Origin: an uncultured Selenomonadales bacterium
GTDB taxonomy: Bacteria > Bacillota > Negativicutes > Selenomonadales > Selenomonadaceae
NCBI GenBank assembly: GCA_900315155.1
Contig: OMYB01000002.1
Coordinates: forward strand, 124,001-188,000
Direction: 5' to 3'
DNA length: 64,000 nt
Positions 43,995 to 59,542 of the stretch are shown one piece after another. The number at the start of each line of letters is the position of its first letter. Positions within the stretch are counted from its first letter, which is position 1. The translations under genes were made by a program, and so were the position numbers. Under the pieces are notes generated by a model. That model was not told the origin of the DNA. It saw nothing but the letters and a program-made list of their open reading frames with translations, and made no database searches.

Positions 43995-44621
43995 TTACCC
44001 TTTCTGAATGTGCGCATGCCCGATGAGCTTGATCTTCTGGAGGTTATCCGAACTCTCCAGGCGGTCTCCTGCGGCCTGCATATCGCCTTTCACGATGTAG
44101 ACGTGATCCTCCATCGTAATCTCGCGGAAACCATTCGTGCTCGCGATGCTGCCGCCCTTGGCCTGCATATCGTCTTTTGCGATATAGGCATCGCCCTTCG
44201 CCGTGAGCGTGCCGCTCGCTGCCGTCCAGATCAGCTGCTCGCTCTTGAGGCTGGCGCCGTCGCTCGTCGTGATCGCCAGGCCGTCTTCGATCGTGACGTC
44301 TTTCGTCTTCGCATCGTAATGTGCCTTCGATGCCTTCACATCAACGACGCGGCCGTCTTCCGCATAGAAATGCCCCGTGATGCCCGTCATATCCGCATTT
44401 TTCGTATCGAGGTCCATCTGGATATGCTCCGCCGTGAGTTCCCAGATTTTCCTGCCGTCTTTTTCTTCGCTGATCGTATTGCCCTCATAGGACATGACAT
44501 GCGTAGACGGCTCGGGGTCCGACCGGTCCGGTGCCTCCGGAATCGTGCGCACGGTCCACACCACGAGCGCGATGAACAGGACAGCAACGATGCCTGCGAG
44601 TGCCTTGCCCTTTGCGCTCAT
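43995..44621 (-). CDS. lptC: LPS export component LptC
   Basis: Bitopic inner-membrane protein that links the Lpt transporter to LptA. The 208-residue protein has one membrane helix (about 7-25, LAGIVAVLFIALVVWTV) and a periplasmic jellyroll with repeated ADMTGITGHFYAEDGRV-like hairpins. Its start overlaps the end of the LpxL-like gene by four bases. LptC is a poorly conserved family, so the call rests on topology, fold pattern and its place between lpxL-like and lptA/lptB genes. Confidence 0.9.
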   Translation of the reverse strand: MSAKGKALAGIVAVLFIALVVWTVRTIPEAPDRSDPEPSTHVMSYEGNTISEEKDGRKIWELTAEHIQMDLDTKNADMTGITGHFYAEDGRVVDVKASKAHYDAKTKDVTIEDGLAITTSDGASLKSEQLIWTAASGTLTAKGDAYIAKDDMQAKGGSIASTNGFREITMEDHVYIVKGDMQAAGDRLESSDNLQKIKLIGHAHIQKG

Positions 44622-45532
44622 GCCTTTTTCCCCTCCTCGATGACGGTATGATGCTTGCCGGTCTTACGCTCTTCCGGCTTCGTGTTCCAGCGCTTCTGGA
44701 ACCAGATCCACTGCGTCGGATTCTCGCGGATGACCTGCTCGATGCGCTGCGTCATCTTCTCCGTGAACGCAAACAGGTTCGCATCCGCATCGCCCGTATC
44801 CACGTAGGGAATCTCGTCATAGATGACGACCTTGTGCTTGCCATTGGGCTGACGCAGGATGAACGCGGGGATGACGGGGCTGTGGAACTTGCGCGAGAAT
44901 ACCGCCGGACCCATCGGCGTCGAGGCGACCTTGCCGAGGAACGGGATGAACGCACCGCCCGGGCCCGCGTCCTGGTCGGCAAGGAATCCGAGGATCTTGC
45001 CCTTTTTCAGCGCACGCGCCGCTGCGAGCAGTTCGCTCGTGCCGCGGGAGAAAATCTCGACATGGATTGTCGCGCGGAGATCGTCGAGGACCTGCGTGTA
45101 CTGGATATTCGGCTGCGGTTTTGCGATGGCCGTGACCGGCAGGCCGTTGAGCGTAAACGATGCCGACAGCCATTCCCACGTGCCGATATGGCCCGTGAGG
45201 ATAACGACGCCTTTTTTCTTCGCGAGCGCTTCCTTGAGCGTATCCAGATGCTCCACATCGATGTACTCGCGGAAATTCTTCTCGTTCAGATGCGGCATAT
45301 AGAGGATCTCGAGCACGTTGCGTGCGAGATTCACGAACGATTCGCGGACCGTGCGGCGCGCCGTACCCTCATCCATCTGCAGAGCCTCCACCATCTGGCT
45401 GACCGCGCGCTCCCGCTCTTTCTTGACGAGCAGATAGTAGAGATTGCCGAGTACCCGGCCGATGCCCATGAGCAGGCAATAAGGCGTATGGCAGACGAGC
45501 CAGCTCAACGCCATCAGCGATTTATAGATCAT
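44618..45532 (-). CDS. Lipid A acyltransferase, LpxL/HtrB-like (copy 1)
   Basis: Inner-membrane late acyltransferase that adds a secondary acyl chain to Kdo-lipid A. The 304-residue protein has an N-terminal membrane anchor, the catalytic H-x4-E motif in LTGHIGTWEWLSA, the FLADQDAGPGGAFIPFLGK block and the C-terminal NPTQWIWFQKRWNT, all as in LpxL/LpxM. A second related protein is encoded at 57573-58436; they share only the general motifs, so they may act on different positions or acyl chains. It overlaps lptC by four bases. Confidence 0.92.
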   Translation of the reverse strand: MIYKSLMALSWLVCHTPYCLLMGIGRVLGNLYYLLVKKERERAVSQMVEALQMDEGTARRTVRESFVNLARNVLEILYMPHLNEKNFREYIDVEHLDTLKEALAKKKGVVILTGHIGTWEWLSASFTLNGLPVTAIAKPQPNIQYTQVLDDLRATIHVEIFSRGTSELLAAARALKKGKILGFLADQDAGPGGAFIPFLGKVASTPMGPAVFSRKFHSPVIPAFILRQPNGKHKVVIYDEIPYVDTGDADANLFAFTEKMTQRIEQVIRENPTQWIWFQKRWNTKPEERKTGKHHTVIEEGKKA

Positions 45533-45568: not shown

Positions 45569-46153
45569 TTACTGTGCGAGGTGTTCTGCCTCCGCCTTTT
45601 GCTTCTCCTGCTGCGCGTCTGTCTCATAGAATCCTGCGATGAGGTCCTGCCATTTTCCCTGTGCCTGCAGGATAAAGGTCAGGATCTCGCGCACCGCACC
45701 GTGCCCGCCGCCAAAATGCGAAACGAATGCGACGCGCTGACGCACCTCGGGCACCGCATCACAGGGCGCCGCGGGGAATCCGGCCTGCAGCAGGATCGGC
45801 AGGTCGATGAGATCATCGCCGATATAGGCGATTTCTTCGTCGCAAAGCCCCAGCTTCTCCTTGAGCTCCGCGTAAGCGGCGCGCTTATCCGGTTTCCCCT
45901 GGTAGACATGCGTAAAATGGAGTTCCTTGGCGCGGAACGCAACCTGTTTTGAAGTCCGCCCCGTGATGATGGCCGTCTCAATGCCGGCGCGCTGCGCCAA
46001 TGTGATTCCCAACCCATCTTTGCAGTTAAACGGCTTGAACAGCTCGCCGTCCGCCCCCGTATAGATGCCGCCATCCGTGAGGACACCGTCCACGTCGAAA
46101 ATCACGAGGCGCACGCGCTTCGCGCGCACCATGGCATCTGCTGTGCAATCCAT
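45569..46153 (-). CDS. kdsC: 3-deoxy-D-manno-octulosonate-8-phosphate phosphatase
   Basis: HAD-family phosphatase that releases Kdo from Kdo-8-phosphate. The 194-residue protein carries LVIFDVDGVLTDG (nucleophile Asp and acid Asp), ITGRTS, GKPDKRAA and IGDDLIDLPIL. It has a C-terminal tail rich in Gln, Glu and Lys. The start has AGGGAG nine bases upstream and lies one base after the kdsD stop. Confidence 0.95.
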   Translation of the reverse strand: MDCTADAMVRAKRVRLVIFDVDGVLTDGGIYTGADGELFKPFNCKDGLGITLAQRAGIETAIITGRTSKQVAFRAKELHFTHVYQGKPDKRAAYAELKEKLGLCDEEIAYIGDDLIDLPILLQAGFPAAPCDAVPEVRQRVAFVSHFGGGHGAVREILTFILQAQGKWQDLIAGFYETDAQQEKQKAEAEHLAQ

Positions 46154-46154
46154 A

Positions 46155-47123
46155 TCAAACCACTCCCTGGCGGAGGAGATCCGTCAGATGCACGATGCCT
46201 ACCGGGTTGTTGTCCTTGTCGATGACCGGCAGGACCGTAATCGGACGCGGCTTGTGCTTTTCCATCTCGTGCAGCGCCTCGGCAGCCATGCGCTCCGGCG
46301 CGATAACCATCGGCGTCTCGAACATGATGTTCTTGACTGGCATGTCGAGGAAATTGTTATCCTTCGCGAGGGCGCGGCGGATGATGCCATCCGTGACGAG
46401 GCCGATGAACTTGCCATCCGCATCGACGACGGAGGCGGCACCGAGCCCCTTGTCCGTCATGATGAACAGCGCGTCGCGCGCCGTCGCATCCGCTTTGACG
46501 ATCGGGTTGTCCTCGCCCGTGTGCATGACGTTGCGCACGGTGAGCAGCAGACGGCGTCCGAGCGCGCCGCCCGGATGGAACAGCGCGAAATCCTCGCTCG
46601 TGAAATTGCGCACCGACATCAGCGCAATGGCGATGGCGTCGCCCATCGCGAGCGTCGCTGTCGTGCTGGCCGTCGGAGCGAGTCCCAGCGGGCATGCCTC
46701 GCGCTCGACACCCGTGTCGATGAAATAGTCGCAAAACTTGCCGAGCTGCGAGTCGCGGTTGCCGGACATCGCGATGATGCCCGCACCGATGCGGCGGATA
46801 ATCGGCAGGATCTTCACGACCTCGGACGACTCGCCGCTGTTCGAAATCGCAATGACGATATCGTCCTCCGTGACCATGCCGAGATCGCCATGGAACGCCT
46901 CTGCCGGATGCAGGAAGAACGACGGCGTGCCTGTACTGGCGAGCGTCGCAGCAATCTTGCGGCCGATATGCCCGGATTTTCCCATGCCCGTCACGATGAC
47001 GCGCGCCTTGCACGTCAGGATGTATTTCACAGCCGCCTCAAATTCGTCATCAATGCGAGGTATGAGCCTTTCGATGGCATCCGCCTCGATCTTCAGCGTT
47101 TCAATGGCTTTTTCCTTGATCAA
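46155..47123 (-). CDS. kdsD: Arabinose-5-phosphate isomerase (KdsD/KpsF/GutQ)
   Basis: Converts ribulose 5-phosphate to arabinose 5-phosphate for Kdo synthesis. About 322 residues: a SIS domain (about 35-170) with VTGMGKSGHIGRKIAATLAS, PAEAFHGDLGMV and ISNSGESSEV, then two CBS repeats (about 200-320). The start is taken as TTG at 47123 because AGGAGG lies nine bases before it; a GTG six codons earlier would include the ribosome site in the coding sequence. It lies between kdsA and kdsC. Confidence 0.94.
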   Translation of the reverse strand: MIKEKAIETLKIEADAIERLIPRIDDEFEAAVKYILTCKARVIVTGMGKSGHIGRKIAATLASTGTPSFFLHPAEAFHGDLGMVTEDDIVIAISNSGESSEVVKILPIIRRIGAGIIAMSGNRDSQLGKFCDYFIDTGVEREACPLGLAPTASTTATLAMGDAIAIALMSVRNFTSEDFALFHPGGALGRRLLLTVRNVMHTGEDNPIVKADATARDALFIMTDKGLGAASVVDADGKFIGLVTDGIIRRALAKDNNFLDMPVKNIMFETPMVIAPERMAAEALHEMEKHKPRPITVLPVIDKDNNPVGIVHLTDLLRQGVV

Positions 47124-47193
47124 AGACTTTCTCCTCCTCACGGCGCGGAGCCGTTATGTTCCAGAATCTCCCAGCATGAAAAAACACAGGGAG

Positions 47194-48018
47194 TCAAAGC
47201 TTCTTGCGTACGATTTCGTGGATGGCGAGGGCATCCTTCAGCAGGTCCTCGAGCTTATCGAGATAGACCATGTTCGCCCCGTCGGAAAGCGCCTCTTCCG
47301 GGTTGTCGTGAACCTCGAGGAACAGGGCATCGACACCAGCGCCGACGGCTGCGCGCACGAGATACTCGACGTACTCGCGGTTGCCGGACGACGTCGTGCC
47401 GCCTGCACCCGGCAGCTGCACGCTGTGCGTGCCGTCGAAGACGACCGGATAGCCGAACCCGCGCATGATCGGCAGGCTGCGCATATCGACGACGAGATTG
47501 TGATAGCCGAACGAGGCGCCGCGCTCCGTGAGCATGAGCTGCGAGCAGCCGCTTTCGTGGAGCTTGTCGACAACGTTGCGCATGTCATCCGGTGCGAGGA
47601 ACTGGCCCTTCTTCACGTTGACGACCTTGCCCGTCTGCGCGGCGGCATGCAGGAGGTCCGTCTGGCGGCAGAGGAAAGCCGGGATCTGCAGGATATCGGC
47701 GACCTTGGCGGCCTTTTCCGCCTGCCACGGCTCATGGATATCCGTCACGATAGGTACGTGCAGCTCATCCTTGATGGTCTGCAGCATGGAAAGGCCCTTC
47801 TCGATGCCAGGGCCGCGGAAGCTGTGGTACGAGGAACGGTTTGCCTTGTCGAACGATGCCTTGAAGACATACGGGATGCCGAGGCGGCCGCAGATTTCCT
47901 TGATCGTGCGTCCGATATAGAGGCAGCGGTCCAGTCCCTCCAGCACGCAGGGACCAGCCAGCAGGGCGAGCGGCTCGCCCGCGCCGATTTCGAAGTTTCC
48001 TACCTTGACTTTCGTCAT
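47194..48018 (-). CDS. kdsA: 3-deoxy-8-phosphooctulonate synthase
   Basis: Condenses arabinose 5-phosphate with phosphoenolpyruvate to Kdo-8-phosphate. The 274-residue TIM barrel contains [50 protein letters not shown] and the VQLPGAGG loop. The start at 48018 is chosen because AAAGGTGG is eight bases before it; a GTG four codons earlier has no spacing. It follows kdsB by 18 bases. Confidence 0.97.
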
Positions 48019-48036
48019 GATGAATGCCACCTTTCC

Positions 48037-48771
48037 TTACTGATTTCCTTCTTCGCTGTAAATAGCGCGGACCTTCTCCAGGTCTTCCGCCGTATCGACG
48101 CCGACGAAGCGGTACGGCGTCTCGATGACGCGGATGCGGTATCCGTTCTCGAGCGCACGCAGCTGCTCCAGGCTTTCTGCATGCTCGAGCGGCGTCTCCG
48201 CCATCTCCGCATACTGGAGCAGGAAATCGCGCTTGTAGGCATAAATGCCGATATGCTTGTAGACGGGCGTACCCTCATGGCGCGGGAACGGCATCAGGGA
48301 GCGCGAGAAGTAAAGCGCATAACCGTTCCTGTCCGTGACGACCTTGACATTGTTCGGGTTCTTCTGCTCCTCGGGGTCCGTGATTTCCGTCTTGACCGTC
48401 GCCATCTGGAGCTCCGGATCGTCATCGAAAGCGGCTGCGAGGTCATCGATGAGCTTCGGCTCGATGAGCGGCTCATCGCCCTGTACGTTGATGATGAGCT
48501 CTGCCTCGGGATGCGCGGCGGCGACCTCTGCCAGGCGGTCCGTGCCCGTCGGATGGTCCTTCTTCGTCATCATGGCCTTGCCGCCAGCCTGCCGGACCGC
48601 TGTATAGATGCGTTCATCATCGGTCGCGACGATCGTATCCGTGACGCGGGAAGCCCTTGCCGCGCGCTCGTAGACGCGCACGACCATCGGCTTGCCGCAG
48701 ATATCTTTCAGGGGTTTCCCCGGCAGGCGCGTCGATGCATACCGTGCCGGAATGACGCATAATACCTTCAT
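48037..48771 (-). CDS. kdsB: 3-deoxy-manno-octulosonate cytidylyltransferase
   Basis: Activates Kdo to CMP-Kdo. The 244-residue protein begins KVLCVIPARYASTRLPGKPL (nucleotide-binding loop) and has ATDDERI, HPTGTDRLAEVA and NVQGDEPLIEP, all conserved. The ATG at 48771 lies one base after the stop of the waaA-lpxK fusion, with AGGAG upstream in that gene; an in-frame ATG 14 codons earlier lies inside the fusion gene. It delivers the substrate used by the WaaA half of the neighbouring protein. Confidence 0.96.
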   Translation of the reverse strand: MKVLCVIPARYASTRLPGKPLKDICGKPMVVRVYERAARASRVTDTIVATDDERIYTAVRQAGGKAMMTKKDHPTGTDRLAEVAAAHPEAELIINVQGDEPLIEPKLIDDLAAAFDDDPELQMATVKTEITDPEEQKNPNNVKVVTDRNGYALYFSRSLMPFPRHEGTPVYKHIGIYAYKRDFLLQYAEMAETPLEHAESLEQLRALENGYRIRVIETPYRFVGVDTAEDLEKVRAIYSEEGNQ

Positions 48772-48772
48772 G

Positions 48773-51292
48773 TCAGTCTTCCTCTCCTTTTTGCTGCAGC
48801 AGCTGCGGCGCATGGCCCAGCTTCTCCGTCAGGCGCTCGCCGAGCATCTTCTGGAATCCCTCGCCGCCCTTCGTGAACGTAACCTCTACGCAGATGACGT
48901 AGACCGGGATATTCCACTGCGCATTGATCACTTCCGTCGGAATCTTCACGGCATCTTTCTCCGTGATGACGATGGCCTCTGCTCCCATATTCTCGGCCTG
49001 CTCGAGGATATCCTGCATCTCCTGCATCGTGTAGTCGTGATGATCCGGATAACGCAGGCTCTCGATGATCGTCGCGCCGAGGTCGGAAAGCGTCTGCTCG
49101 AACGATGCCGGATTCCCGATGGCCGAGACCGCCACGATGCGGTGTCCCTTGATCATGTGGACGTTCATGCTGTCGTTCGCAATATCCTTGTACCATTCCG
49201 AGATAGGGATGAAATTGCGCGGCTGATGCACCGACTCGAGGATATGCGCCTCAGGATTGTACTTCCTGACCGTCTGCTGGATGTAGTCACAAGAGCCTTC
49301 CGCTGCCTGATCGACCTTCGTCATGAGGCAGACATCGGCACGGCTGATATGCGAAATCGGCTCGCGCAGCGTGCCGCGCGGCAGGATATAGCCGTTGCCG
49401 AATACGTTGACCGCATCGACGAGCAGGATATCGAGGTCGCGCTCGAGCTGCCAGTGCTGGTAGCCATCATCGAGGATAGCGACCTCTGCGCCGAAATGCT
49501 CGATGGCGTAACGCCCCGTCTTGACGCGTTCCGCGCCGATGAGGACCGGAACGTCTGGCAGGTGCTTCGCGAGCATGTACGCCTCATCACCCGCCTCGGA
49601 AGAATCCATATAGAGTTTCTTTCCGTCGGAAACGATGCCGACCTCCCCGTGCCATTTCGCGCGGTAGCCGCGGTTCAGGATGACGACGCGGTAGCCCATA
49701 TCGCGGATCGTGCGTGCGAGGCGCTGTGCCGTCGGGGTCTTGCCCGTGCCGCCCACGGTCACATTGCCGAGGGAAATGACGAAACAATCGAGCTTATGGC
49801 GCTTGAACATACCGATGGAGTAACCGGCCAGCTTGAAATTCACGAGGCCGGCGTAGATGAACGAAAAGACATGCAGTACACCGAGCAGGATGTTGATGAA
49901 GAATCCGTCTACTTCCTTAGCATGCACGAGGTCAATGAAATACGTCTGCAAATTCGCGATTTTCTGCGTGGAACGCACGCGGCGCGTCTCCTCATCGCTC
50001 TCATAGGCATCGAGCATCTGGCGCAGGATCACGGCAGACTTGCGGGATGCGCCCTTATTTTCGCGCACGATGGCGAGGGTTTCCTGCTCCATGCGGTGGC
50101 GTTCCTCCGGATCATCGAAGAGACGGACCACCTGCTGACGGAGCTCCTTGCTGTTCTTGACCGTGATGACCGCATTGCGGTTCTTGAAGAGCGCATGCGT
50201 GTCCTTGAAGTTGAACATATAGTGGCCGACGATAATGGCCTTGCCATGGGCAGCAGGCTCGAGGATGTTGTGCCCGCCATGGGAGACCAGGCTGCCGCCG
50301 ACGTAGATGACATCGCCGATGCTGTAGACTTTGCCGAGCTCGCCGATCGTATCGAGGATGACAATATCCTCGTTTGCAGGCTGCCGCTTCTGGAGCTCCG
50401 TGCGGCAGGCGACGGTGAAGCCGGCACTCTTGCAGAGGTGCACGACCTCTGCCGTGCGCAAGAGCTCACGCGGCGCGATGACGAGGCGGGCATGCGGATG
50501 GCTCTCGCGCACGGCGCGGAACGCATCGAGCACATAGTCCTCCTCGCCGCGGTGCGTAGAACCGGCGAGGAAGATGCCATCGTTCTCTTCGAGGCCCATG
50601 TCGGTGATGATCTTCTGCTTTTCCTCCGGGCTCACATCCGTGTAGGTCTGGTCGAATTTCGTATTGCCCGTAACCGTCACGCGTGCGGGATCCGCGCCGA
50701 GGCGCTTGATATAATCCGCATCGATGGACGACTGCATCGCGAACACCTTGACCGTCCCGAGCATATCGCGCAGCAGGCTGTGCAGATGCTTATACTGCTT
50801 GACGCTGCGGTCGCTGATGCGGCCGTTGACCATCATGACCGGGATGCGGAGCTGGCGTGCCGTCTTGAGGAAGTTCGGCCAAAGCTCGGTCTCTACCGGC
50901 AGGAATACCCGCGGATGGATGCGGCGCATGACATGTGCCGCTACGAATGGCAGATCCAGCGGGAAATAGATGATCGCATCCGCATCCTTGATGATGCGGT
51001 TCGCCATCTCATAGCCGCTCGTCGTCACGACGGACACGAGAATCGGGCTGCGCGGGAACTCCTTGCGGAATTCCTTGATGATCGGGCTCGTCGCCACGAT
51101 CTCGCCGACCGAGGCCGCATGTACCCAGATGCAGTCCTTTTTCTCGACTTTATCAAGCGCGTGCTCCGGGAAGAACCCGAGGCTCTGCCGGATGCGTTCC
51201 ACGAAGCCTTTCTCGCGTACCGACCGTACCAGGAACACGGGGATGATCAGGAATACGACGATGATCCCTGCGATATTATACAGTAGTTGCAT
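48773..51292 (-). CDS. WaaA-LpxK fusion: Kdo transferase plus tetraacyldisaccharide 4'-kinase
   Basis: A single 839-residue frame holding two enzymes. Residues 1-430 are Kdo transferase WaaA (KdtA): membrane anchor (5-22), WVHAASVGE with the catalytic Glu64, VETELWPN (133-140), GNTKFDQ and the CMP-Kdo site GGSLVSHGGHNILEPAA. After a linker (about 430-450) comes LpxK: membrane segment (about 463-490), Walker A GNVTVGGTGKTPTA (509-522), the ERVKTGRYA block, LDDGYQHWQLERDLD and the end with IVITEKDAVKIP. LpxK adds the 4'-phosphate to lipid A and WaaA then adds Kdo, so consecutive steps are joined. It is one base from msbA and one base from kdsB. All key residues that I can check are intact. Confidence 0.95.
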   Translation of the reverse strand: MQLLYNIAGIIVVFLIIPVFLVRSVREKGFVERIRQSLGFFPEHALDKVEKKDCIWVHAASVGEIVATSPIIKEFRKEFPRSPILVSVVTTSGYEMANRIIKDADAIIYFPLDLPFVAAHVMRRIHPRVFLPVETELWPNFLKTARQLRIPVMMVNGRISDRSVKQYKHLHSLLRDMLGTVKVFAMQSSIDADYIKRLGADPARVTVTGNTKFDQTYTDVSPEEKQKIITDMGLEENDGIFLAGSTHRGEEDYVLDAFRAVRESHPHARLVIAPRELLRTAEVVHLCKSAGFTVACRTELQKRQPANEDIVILDTIGELGKVYSIGDVIYVGGSLVSHGGHNILEPAAHGKAIIVGHYMFNFKDTHALFKNRNAVITVKNSKELRQQVVRLFDDPEERHRMEQETLAIVRENKGASRKSAVILRQMLDAYESDEETRRVRSTQKIANLQTYFIDLVHAKEVDGFFINILLGVLHVFSFIYAGLVNFKLAGYSIGMFKRHKLDCFVISLGNVTVGGTGKTPTAQRLARTIRDMGYRVVILNRGYRAKWHGEVGIVSDGKKLYMDSSEAGDEAYMLAKHLPDVPVLIGAERVKTGRYAIEHFGAEVAILDDGYQHWQLERDLDILLVDAVNVFGNGYILPRGTLREPISHISRADVCLMTKVDQAAEGSCDYIQQTVRKYNPEAHILESVHQPRNFIPISEWYKDIANDSMNVHMIKGHRIVAVSAIGNPASFEQTLSDLGATIIESLRYPDHHDYTMQEMQDILEQAENMGAEAIVITEKDAVKIPTEVINAQWNIPVYVICVEVTFTKGGEGFQKMLGERLTEKLGHAPQLLQQKGEED

Positions 51293-51293
51293 T

Positions 51294-53039
<1,746 letters not shown>

Positions 53040-53061: not shown

Positions 53062-54207
53062 TTACCGGATTTGCTGATGGCGGCGTGCTGCCGACAGGAT
53101 CTTCTCAGCCACGCGGCCCGATGCCCCTGGCGGACCGAGGCGGTCACACGCCTGCCGAAGCTTGCGGACTGTCTCTTCGCGATGGGTTTCGCCACGGTAC
53201 AGCTTCATGATTTCTTCCGTAATGCGCCGGGGCTCGACCTCATCCTGCAGCAGTTCCGGCTGGAACGATTCGTCCAGCAGGATATTCGGCAGGCTGAAGT
53301 TCTTCACGTGGACGAGCAGGCGGCCGACGCGGTACGATATCGGTGAAAGGCGGTAAAGCACGACGCAGGGCAGCCCCATGAGCGCTGCCTCCATGACGAC
53401 CGTGCCCGATGTCGCCATCGCGGCATCAGCCAGTCCCATGAGGGCATAGCGGTAGCGGTGCGTGAGCCTGACGGACACGCCGGCCTCCGCGATGCGCCCG
53501 CGCAGGTTCTCCTCATCGATACCCGGTGCAACAGGCAGGAAGAACTTCGTTTCCGGACGGCGTTGCGAAAGCTCGCGCACCGCGCCGAGCATCGCCGGCA
53601 GCAGCAGCTCGATCTCCTGGCGCCGGCTGCCCGGCATGAGGAGTACGGCATGCTCATCCTCGGCGATGCCGAAATGCGCACGCGCCTCATGCTCCGTCAG
53701 CTCGGATTTCACCGTATCCACGAGCGGATTGCCGACGAACGAAATCTTTGCACCAGCCTGCTCGTAGACCGGCAGCTCATGCGGGAAGATCGCCACGAAT
53801 TCCTCCGCGAGCTTCGCGCAGTCCTTCGCCCTGCCTTTCCGCCACGCCCACGCCGAAGGCGGGATATAAGAAAAGACGGGAATGCCGAGCTTCTTCGCGC
53901 GCTTCGCGAGGCGCCAGTTGAAGTCCGGATAGTCGATGAGCACGAGCAGATCCGGTTTCTCCTCGCGAAGGAACTCCGTAAGCTGGTCGAGAAGGCGGAG
54001 GATGCGGCGCAGATTGCAGATGACCTCCCATACGCCCATGACGTTATAGCTCTCAAAATCTGCCGCAAGGCGCACGCCTGCACGTGCCATCTCCTTGCCG
54101 CCGAAACCAATGAGCTCCGTCTCAGGTGCCTGCTCCAGCATCGCTGTCGCGATGCGCGCGCCGTGGAGATCGCCGGACGTCTCGCCGGCGGATAGCATGA
54201 TCTTCAA
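53062..54207 (-). CDS. lpxB: Lipid-A-disaccharide synthase
   Basis: Joins UDP-2,3-diacylglucosamine and lipid X to form the lipid A disaccharide. The 381-residue protein begins IMLSAGETSGDLHGAR, has LVLIDYPDFNW, SYIPPSAWAWRKGR, FVGNPLVD, LLMPGSRRQEI and SGTVVMEAAL. The start is taken as TTG at 54207, matching the family N-terminus MKIMLSAGE, with GGGG eight bases upstream; the ATG three codons later is an alternative. A terminator lies upstream of the gene, after lpxI. Confidence 0.95.
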   Translation of the reverse strand: MKIMLSAGETSGDLHGARIATAMLEQAPETELIGFGGKEMARAGVRLAADFESYNVMGVWEVICNLRRILRLLDQLTEFLREEKPDLLVLIDYPDFNWRLAKRAKKLGIPVFSYIPPSAWAWRKGRAKDCAKLAEEFVAIFPHELPVYEQAGAKISFVGNPLVDTVKSELTEHEARAHFGIAEDEHAVLLMPGSRRQEIELLLPAMLGAVRELSQRRPETKFFLPVAPGIDEENLRGRIAEAGVSVRLTHRYRYALMGLADAAMATSGTVVMEAALMGLPCVVLYRLSPISYRVGRLLVHVKNFSLPNILLDESFQPELLQDEVEPRRITEEIMKLYRGETHREETVRKLRQACDRLGPPGASGRVAEKILSAARRHQQIR

Positions 54208-57572: not shown

Positions 57573-58436
57573 TCATGGACGCATCGACTTCCAGCGGTCA
57601 TGCAGCCAGAACCATTCCTCCGGATACCGGCGGATATGGGCCTCGATATCATGCGTGAGCAGCTGCGTTGTGCGGCGGATATCCTCGCGCTTGTCCTTCG
57701 TCTTTTCCGTATAGACCGGATCCCCGATGATGAGCGTATGCGTGCAATCCAGATTGCGATGCATAAAGCAGGGGAATATCGGCGCGCCGCGGAATCGGCT
57801 CATCGAGGCCGCACCGGGCACGCAGTTCGTCGGCTGCCCGAAAAAATCGAGGATGATGCCGTCGCGTTTGTTCGTATCCTGATCCATGATGAGGCCGATG
57901 AACCAGCCTTCATCCATCATCTTGAACATCTCCCGCACGCCGGTCTTATACGTGATATGCATGCCGATGAGCGTACGGTACTCCATGATGAATTTATCGG
58001 CGCCGGCATCCTTCTGCTTCATCGCAACGCCGACGAGCGGGATCCCATACTGGGCAAACGCGCCGCCCATGAGTTCCCAGTTGCCGCAATGCCCCGTCGC
58101 GATGATGCCGCCTTTGCCTTCCTTCATGGCTTTCTGCAGTTTCTCAAGTCCCTCAACGCGTACATACTCCCCGATATGCCTGCGGATCACCGGGAAGCGC
58201 AGCACCTCAAACAGCATCGGGCCAAAGCGCACAGAACTCGCGCGTGCGATACGCTCCGCTTCCTTTTCATCCACGCCGAGGCATTTCCTCACCTGCTCAC
58301 GGGCAAGGTCTTTTCTTTTTTTCGGCACCAGCGGCCAGAGCGCAGCGCCGAGCATACGGCCCATCCACTCGCAGCAGCCGCGGGGCAGACGGCAGCATAC
58401 CCAGCTGAGGACCTTCAGCAGATAATACGCGAACAT
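57573..58436 (-). CDS. Lipid A acyltransferase, LpxL/LpxM-like (copy 2)
   Basis: A 287-residue acyltransferase of the LpxL/LpxM group, distinct from the copy at 44618-45532. The catalytic H-x4-E motif is in IIATGHCGNWELMGG; GLIMDQDTNKRDGIILDFFG is the second conserved block, and the C-terminal PEEWFWLHDRWKS is typical. The N-terminus holds one membrane-anchoring helix. The start at 58436 has GGGGGAGGAG upstream. It sits between lpxD and lpxC and after a terminator. Two late acyltransferases suggest a lipid A with two secondary acyl chains. Confidence 0.9.
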   Translation of the reverse strand: MFAYYLLKVLSWVCCRLPRGCCEWMGRMLGAALWPLVPKKRKDLAREQVRKCLGVDEKEAERIARASSVRFGPMLFEVLRFPVIRRHIGEYVRVEGLEKLQKAMKEGKGGIIATGHCGNWELMGGAFAQYGIPLVGVAMKQKDAGADKFIMEYRTLIGMHITYKTGVREMFKMMDEGWFIGLIMDQDTNKRDGIILDFFGQPTNCVPGAASMSRFRGAPIFPCFMHRNLDCTHTLIIGDPVYTEKTKDKREDIRRTTQLLTHDIEAHIRRYPEEWFWLHDRWKSMRP

Positions 58437-58459
58437 ACGACTCCTCCCCCTGTTATCAA

Positions 58460-58494
58460 GAAAAAATAGCCTTCCCCCAGCGGAGAAGGCCCTA
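58460..58494 (-). terminator. Terminator between lpxD and the LpxL-like gene
   Basis: Minus strand GGGCCTTCTCC ... GGGGAAGGC then TATTTTTTC. It falls inside the OM-biogenesis gene run, so it may set relative expression levels. Confidence 0.75.
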
Positions 58495-58513
58495 TCCTGT
58501 TCATCAGCCCGGA

Positions 58514-59542
58514 TTATTTCTGCTCGAACTTCGCGAGCTTTTTCTCGAGCTGCTTCATCTTCTTGTACATCTCCGGCAGATGCTTCATCGTGGCCTGCAT
58601 GCGGAGCCACTCCGTATGCTGCTGAACCGGGAATCCGGCACAGAATACACCTTCCGGCATATCGCTGATGATACCGGAGCGGGCGGCGTAAACGGAATTC
58701 GCACCAATGTGGATGTGGCCGACCGTACCGACCTGTCCGCCGAACGTGACATTATGATCGACGATGGTCGAGCCCGAGATGCCCGTCTGCGCGACGATGA
58801 GGCAGTTCGGCCCGATCTTGCAGTTATGGCCGATATGCACGAGGTTGTCGGTCTTCGTGCCATGGCCGATGACCGTCGAACCCATAGCCGCACGGTCAAT
58901 GCTGTTGTGCGCACCGATCTCGACATCATCCTCGATGACGACGTTGCCGACCTGCGGCACCTTCGTGTGCACGCCGTCCCTCGTCGTGAAGCCGAAGCCA
59001 TCCGAGCCGATGACGGCCGACGCGTTGATGATGCAGCGCTTGCCGACCTGGCAATGCTCGCGGATCGTAACGTTCGAGTAGATGAGGCTGTCCGCGCCGA
59101 CTTCCGCGTACTGGCCGATATAGGTATGCGGATAAATCGTCACGTTATCGCCGATGACAGCATGGTCATCGATGACGGCAAACGGCATAATCGTGACATG
59201 CTCACCAATCTTCACGTCCTTACCGACGTGCGCCTCGGGGCTCACACCCTGCGGGAATTCCAGCTTCGGCGTAAAATGCGCCAGCAATTTGGCAAACGCC
59301 TCGCGCGGGTTCTCGACATAGAGAGCCGGCTTCGGGAAATCCGCCACGCCCTCCGGCAGCATGACCGCTGCCGCCTGGCAAGCCTTCGCTTCGTCGATAT
59401 GCGGCTCTACGGCGAACGTCAGGTCATGCGCACCTGCGCCTTCGATGTTGTCCAGGCCCGTGATGACGATGCTGGAAGCATCATTCGTGCCAGCCACTCT
59501 GCCGCCTACATAATCCGCAATTTCCTGCAAGGTTTTCTTCAT
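58514..59542 (-). CDS. lpxD: UDP-3-O-acylglucosamine N-acyltransferase
   Basis: Adds the second primary acyl chain in lipid A synthesis. The 342-residue protein has an N-terminal uridine-binding domain (about 1-100), a left-handed beta helix of hexapeptide repeats (about 101-300) with the catalytic His in VHIGHNCKIGPNC, and a C-terminal helix (KMKQLEKKLAKFEQK). Motif IGSDGFGFTTRDG is conserved. It follows the OmpH-like lipoprotein by 15 bases, in the ompH-lpxD order known from other outer-membrane bacteria. Confidence 0.97.
   Translation of the reverse strand: MKKTLQEIADYVGGRVAGTNDASSIVITGLDNIEGAGAHDLTFAVEPHIDEAKACQAAAVMLPEGVADFPKPALYVENPREAFAKLLAHFTPKLEFPQGVSPEAHVGKDVKIGEHVTIMPFAVIDDHAVIGDNVTIYPHTYIGQYAEVGADSLIYSNVTIREHCQVGKRCIINASAVIGSDGFGFTTRDGVHTKVPQVGNVVIEDDVEIGAHNSIDRAAMGSTVIGHGTKTDNLVHIGHNCKIGPNCLIVAQTGISGSTIVDHNVTFGGQVGTVGHIHIGANSVYAARSGIISDMPEGVFCAGFPVQQHTEWLRMQATMKHLPEMYKKMKQLEKKLAKFEQK

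Follow-up and report, generated by a model that had tools for sequence, protein, structure and literature searches.

The lipid A 4'-kinase LpxK and the Kdo transferase WaaA are two known enzymes of the LPS pathway that act in succession in building the outer-membrane anchor, and the locus studied here raises the question of whether one gene can encode both and, if so, how it arose and what the joining does. In the window, by which we mean the whole 64,000-nucleotide stretch of DNA that was analysed, an open reading frame on the minus strand (48773..51292) starts with ATG and runs for 839 codons plus a stop, with no internal stop. A preliminary description had reported this unbroken frame, without giving its strand, and had read it as a WaaA-LpxK fusion. 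We found that both statements hold, since Pfam domains of the two enzymes lie in the one frame and the frame matches solved enzymes. Based on Pfam and NCBIfam matches, alignment (to 2xci for WaaA) and fold, the WaaA half spans approximately residues 1-428 (50009..51292, minus strand) and the LpxK half approximately residues 451-839 (48776..49942, minus strand). Between them lies a linker of residues 429-450 (49943..50008, minus strand) that includes the ancestral lpxK start site. PF04413 (Glycos_transf_N) matched residues 33-215 (E 1.7e-59, 200.8 bits against a cut-off of 23.9), PF00534 matched residues 252-404 (E 3.4e-6) and PF02606 matched residues 472-818 (E 3.5e-88, 296.3 bits against a cut-off of 27). 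The NCBIfam lpxK model TIGR00682 also scored above its curated cut-off (194.7 bits versus 91.95). No NCBIfam WaaA equivalog model passed its whole-protein curated cut-off, the best being NF004388 (residues 2-427, E 2.5e-109, 365.6 bits, below the cut-off of 438); we did not take these cut-offs as defining, because the models are lineage-specific and are scored on single-domain proteins of other groups.

Next, we asked whether the organism has another source of either activity. In the 2.49-Mb genome there was no second WaaA or LpxK match besides the fusion gene, indicating that the fusion would have to do both jobs. In comparison with close relatives, the WaaA half had dN/dS values of 0.06-0.11; those of the linker were 0.06-0.14 and those of the LpxK half 0.12-0.17. 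These low values argue that none of the three parts is decaying, and they point to purifying selection on both halves. An antisense frame (48692-51286, plus strand, 864 aa, TTG start) spans the whole fusion gene, and further antisense frames are present in the neighbouring genes; such frames are probably a by-product of codon usage.

Among solved structures, the two halves matched enzymes of Aquifex aeolicus, namely 2xci for the WaaA half (E 1.6e-29) and 4ehx/4ehw for the LpxK half. In the alignment to 2xci, E64 corresponds to the catalytic glutamate E31 of the A. aeolicus enzyme and E134 to E98, two residues whose proposed roles have been reviewed (PMC6286764), and the motifs VETELWPN and GGHNILEP lie at residues 133-140 and 339-346. 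The LpxK half carries a P-loop, GGTGKT, at 514-519 (GGTGKTP at 514-520) and LDDGYQHW at 607-614. By alignment, K518/T519 are equivalent to A. aeolicus K51/T52, D569 to D99, D608/D609 to D138/D139, H613 to H143 and D750/H751 to D260/H261; the importance of K51, T52, D138, D139 and H261 has likewise been reviewed (PMC6286764). The motifs named earlier (E64, VETELWPN, GGTGKTP and LDDGYQHW) were thus all found in their places. When we looked for active-site loss in alignments, the catalytic residues proved intact: E64, E134, K518/T519, D569, D608/D609 and D750/H751 were invariant in 45 of 45 fused proteins, taken from the window's family and ten other families.

Both domains were then modelled, as had been suggested. 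The structure model of the fusion (mean pLDDT 84.5, pTM 0.52) recovered the LpxK fold against 4ehy (Z 36.8, 1.9 A, 307 residues) and the WaaA fold against 2xci_B (Z 32.7, 5.0 A, 352 residues). Like the WaaA/KdtA proteins of A. aeolicus (2xci/2xcu) and A. baumannii (4bfc), the first half has a GT-B fold, a catalytic glutamate, a CMP-Kdo domain and an N-terminal hydrophobic segment, with the alignment to these structures covering model residues 28-429; unlike them, it is joined to LpxK by a short linker. The second half shares with A. aeolicus LpxK (4ehx, 4ehy, 4lkv) the P-loop, the equivalents of D99/H261 and D138/D139 and a membrane helix before the kinase core, but this helix is internal in the fusion, whereas the A. 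aeolicus helix is N-terminal. The earlier claim of a membrane segment in each half is supported by two hydropathy peaks, one at residues ~3-8 and one at ~461-468. The first belongs to a hydrophobic segment at the N-terminus of the WaaA half (~2-26), and in the structure model a membrane-association helix is predicted at ~464-492, ahead of the kinase core.

The preliminary description had also raised substrate channelling by the fusion as a possibility. In a fixed channel, the kinase site would hand lipid IVA directly to the Kdo-transferase site, and the lipid would not enter the bilayer on the way. LpxK and WaaA are consecutive and both work at the membrane face (PMC6286764), and a detergent-like, toxic character has been reported for intermediates of the pathway (PMC12444477), so proximity could pay. 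However, we saw no interdomain interface in the model, which at a pTM of 0.52 does not fix the arrangement of the WaaA domain relative to the LpxK domain. The linker is of low confidence at residues 434-460 (pLDDT <50), its length and sequence differ between lineages, and split relatives manage without a channel. We consider such a channel unlikely, and the low-confidence, variable linker and the pTM value lead us to favour a flexible tether with 1:1 production over a rigid passage.

The reading that we prefer, with a probability of roughly 0.85, is that the gene encodes a bifunctional inner-membrane-associated enzyme that arose by stop loss between adjacent waaA and lpxK genes and gives tethered, 1:1 production of the two domains. 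The domains are intact, they are the sole copies, they lie in one conserved frame and related fusions carry the footprint of stop loss; enzymatic activity, a single polypeptide product and any kinetic benefit are what we infer from this. In the tethered enzyme, the C-terminal LpxK domain would add the 4'-phosphate to the lipid A disaccharide, yielding lipid IVA, and the N-terminal WaaA domain would then move Kdo from CMP-Kdo onto lipid IVA. Previous work has shown that the kinase LpxK uses the lipid A disaccharide as its substrate and rejects substrates to which Kdo has already been added, that E. coli WaaA prefers 4'-phosphorylated lipid and that both enzymes work at the membrane surface (PMC6286764). 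The substrate preferences place the C-terminal domain first and bear out the order, LpxK then WaaA, that had been proposed. The main effect of the fusion is probably fixed 1:1 production together with membrane co-localisation through the flexible tether.

The fusion gene lies in an LPS cluster: msbA, lpxB, lpxI and lpxA flank it on one side, and the opposite flank carries kdsB, kdsA, kdsD and kdsC. Its upstream neighbour is msbA, for the lipid A flippase (51294..53039, minus strand; TIGR02203, 601.9 bits against a cut-off of 602), and lpxB, whose product makes the LpxK substrate, lies at 53062..54207 (minus strand). On the other side, kdsB, whose product makes the WaaA donor CMP-Kdo, is listed from its first possible start at 48037..48813 (minus strand) and as such overlaps the end of the fusion gene; its homology begins at residue 15, about position 48771. 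The Kdo synthesis genes kdsA, kdsD and kdsC (45569..48030, minus strand) are on the same strand as the fusion. The lipid A cluster is bordered by two LpxL-like late acyltransferases (44618-45532 and 57573-58610, minus strand), neither of which reaches the curated cut-offs of the named LpxL/LpxM models.

To see how far the fusion extends, as the preliminary description had proposed, we mapped it in Negativicutes. Both halves lay in one uninterrupted frame in 110 of 110 Selenomonadaceae loci, cultured strains included; some genomes are represented twice among these loci, once in each of two collections, so the number of species is smaller. Fused named genomes among the matches listed include Selenomonas ruminantium, S. 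bovis, S. artemidis, Mitsuokella, Megamonas, Schwartzia and Quinella, and the best 80 loci of the named-genome scan were all titled Selenomonadaceae, Selenomonadales or older Veillonellaceae. The class survey gave a match in 370 of 380 genomes, and fused and split states were mapped over 32 families (numbered with the prefix f) from stop-to-stop frames read directly. Every tested member was fused in f1, f2, f3, f4, f5, f10, f11, f16 and f18, states were mixed in f9, f17 and f25, and tested members of f6-f8, f12, f13, f15, f19-f24, f26-f28 and f31-f35 had adjacent but separate waaA and lpxK. We relied on stop-to-stop frames because the search table was misleading for one split genome, G288, where an 887-aa frame looked like a fusion and direct translation showed a stop. 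In the same phylum outside the class, WaaA and LpxK matches were separate, mostly kilobases apart. The fusion appears to be universal in Selenomonadaceae and families f2-f5 of the class, and scattered elsewhere.

The same survey bears on whether the long frame could be an assembly or sequencing artefact. A stop or frameshift near residue 440 was looked for and none was present in the window, nor does anything else there speak for an artefact. Many related families do have a stop near the junction, and in these waaA and lpxK are separate neighbours. Two relatives (G125 and G264) showed apparent frameshifts; these splits are frameshifts within single assemblies, and both genomes were left out of the frame analysis and the tree. 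Against this, all 110 Selenomonadaceae loci are unbroken in independent assemblies, which excludes chance and assembly error, and we give an artefact next to no weight.

Determining how the two genes became one was our next goal. In split relatives, lpxK often follows close behind waaA with a strong ribosome site, AAAGGCGGAACAAGTATGCGCCAACGTGAAGC. We propose that the stop codon between such neighbours was lost and that the short intergenic stretch, with the lpxK ribosome site and start, came to be read through in frame. In the fused genome G063 (f5) the linker is GAAGGTGGCGAGCGAATGCGGCAACGTGAAGC, with the codons ATA GAA GGT GGC GAG CGA ATG CGG CAA CGT GAA GCC, so that the ribosome site, the start and MRQRE all stand in frame. 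Many fused linkers of f2 read EGGGRLRH, with CTG in place of ATG, and across f2 most old lpxK starts are CTG, or else the ribosome site has disappeared. The fused genome G302 (f25) retains AAAGGCGGAAAATATG and has TGG where its split sisters have TGA: its junction reads TGG ... AAG GCG GAA AAT ATG, compared with TGA ... AAGGCGGAAACTATATG in the sisters. Here the stop has become Trp, and a 2-base length difference restores the frame. Judged from such junctions, the ribosome site and start within fused linkers represent a scar of stop-codon loss.

On a tree built from the two proteins, WaaA and LpxK, the fused state required 5 changes under the LG model, each of them imposed by well-supported branches; with a mixture model and after removal of long branches, 6 changes were required, 3 of them forced by supported branches. 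The number of independent fusions thus varies with the tree model. Because the outgroup is split and fused linkers bear ribosome-site scars, we take repeated fusion as the simplest account: Negativicutes most likely underwent this kind of fusion several times, and some later splitting of fused genes may also have occurred. It could be argued that this repeated, convergent fusion reflects selection for direct hand-over of lipid IVA in diderm Firmicutes, yielding a single-chain channelling enzyme, an idea that we regard as doubtful.

A neutral explanation concerns why the fusion spread, not what it is, and holds that a harmless stop loss between co-translated neighbours drifted to fixation. Some separate neighbours are indeed few mutations from fusion: in G306/G307 (f26) the ribosome site lies within waaA and a single in-frame TAG remains, and in G079 (f9) the ribosome site also lies within waaA and the genes overlap by TAATG. 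The repetition of fusion events on the tree fits as well. On the other hand, Selenomonadaceae and f2-f5 have retained the fusion throughout, and between close relatives the linker is constrained, although both facts are compatible with neutrality because re-splitting needs a new stop and a new start site. We put selective neutrality a little short of even odds, and a neutral origin by stop loss appears about as likely as a benefit from proximity.

We also considered that free LpxK might be made alongside the fusion, with translation also initiating inside the fused frame where lpxK once started. In the window linker, V439 is encoded by GTG (49976-49978) at the ancestral start, with GAGGAG upstream at 49988-49993, which could start free LpxK; L004 is alike, and a ribosome site with an in-frame ATG is retained in the fused G302 and G063. 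However, of the 110 Selenomonadaceae loci just two, the window and one relative, combine a ribosome-site-like stretch with a start, and in 60 of the 110 the 22 codons that precede the LpxK homology contain no ATG, GTG or TTG. A conserved internal LpxK start was on these counts rejected for Selenomonadaceae. The f2 linkers described above have mostly CTG or no ribosome site, and dual production seems improbable to us. Since the old ribosome site and start are mostly gone in Selenomonadaceae, the main or only product in this family is probably the fused chain. In the window organism itself, the GTG at 49976-49978 may be a candidate start for free LpxK. The G302 (L141) junction is a natural case where fused and free LpxK might both be made.

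Previous reports described waaA-lpxK as a frequent gene pair (Opiyo et al. 2010, PMC3087551) and listed the clustered LPS genes of Negativicutes (Antunes et al. 2016, PMC5007114). These are the same genes and the same consecutive steps; the relevant passages of the two papers report clustering, with a single fused protein going unmentioned there. Our literature search found no description of a WaaA-LpxK fusion; subscription papers and protein databases lay outside it, and an earlier notice is possible. A fusion of LpxC and FabZ in Bacteroidetes, Chlorobi and Verrucomicrobia (PMC3087551) likewise joins two lipid A-related neighbour genes in a lineage, with different enzymes at a different step. 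What we judge to be new is that two known enzymes are combined in a single chain, by an evolutionary route that is clearly marked and was taken repeatedly. Two consecutive LPS steps are one protein across a whole bacterial family, and the genes, variously distant, neighbouring, overlapping, one stop apart or fused, form a natural series for testing what is gained by fusing enzymes of the lipid A pathway. In genomes that carry the fusion, lpxK or waaA may escape annotation tools that expect each gene to have a single function.

Other arrangements of WaaA were also seen. In the same phylum outside the class, G552 and G710 have WaaA fused C-terminally to a glycosyltransferase-9 (heptosyltransferase) domain, in proteins of ~780 aa (L171:1212-3554 and L173:1285-3624, both minus strand), and the search table lists similar ~785-aa open frames in G748 and G669. 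The G552/G710 fusion shares with ours WaaA and a C-terminal partner from a neighbouring pathway step, but the GT9 partner is expected to act after Kdo addition, whereas the LpxK kinase acts before it. Some genomes carry, besides the fused or paired copy, a second free-standing WaaA that is 48-49% identical to that of the window (G044:C27:185008-186348; G046:C3:2883-4205; G077:C5:249574-250851).
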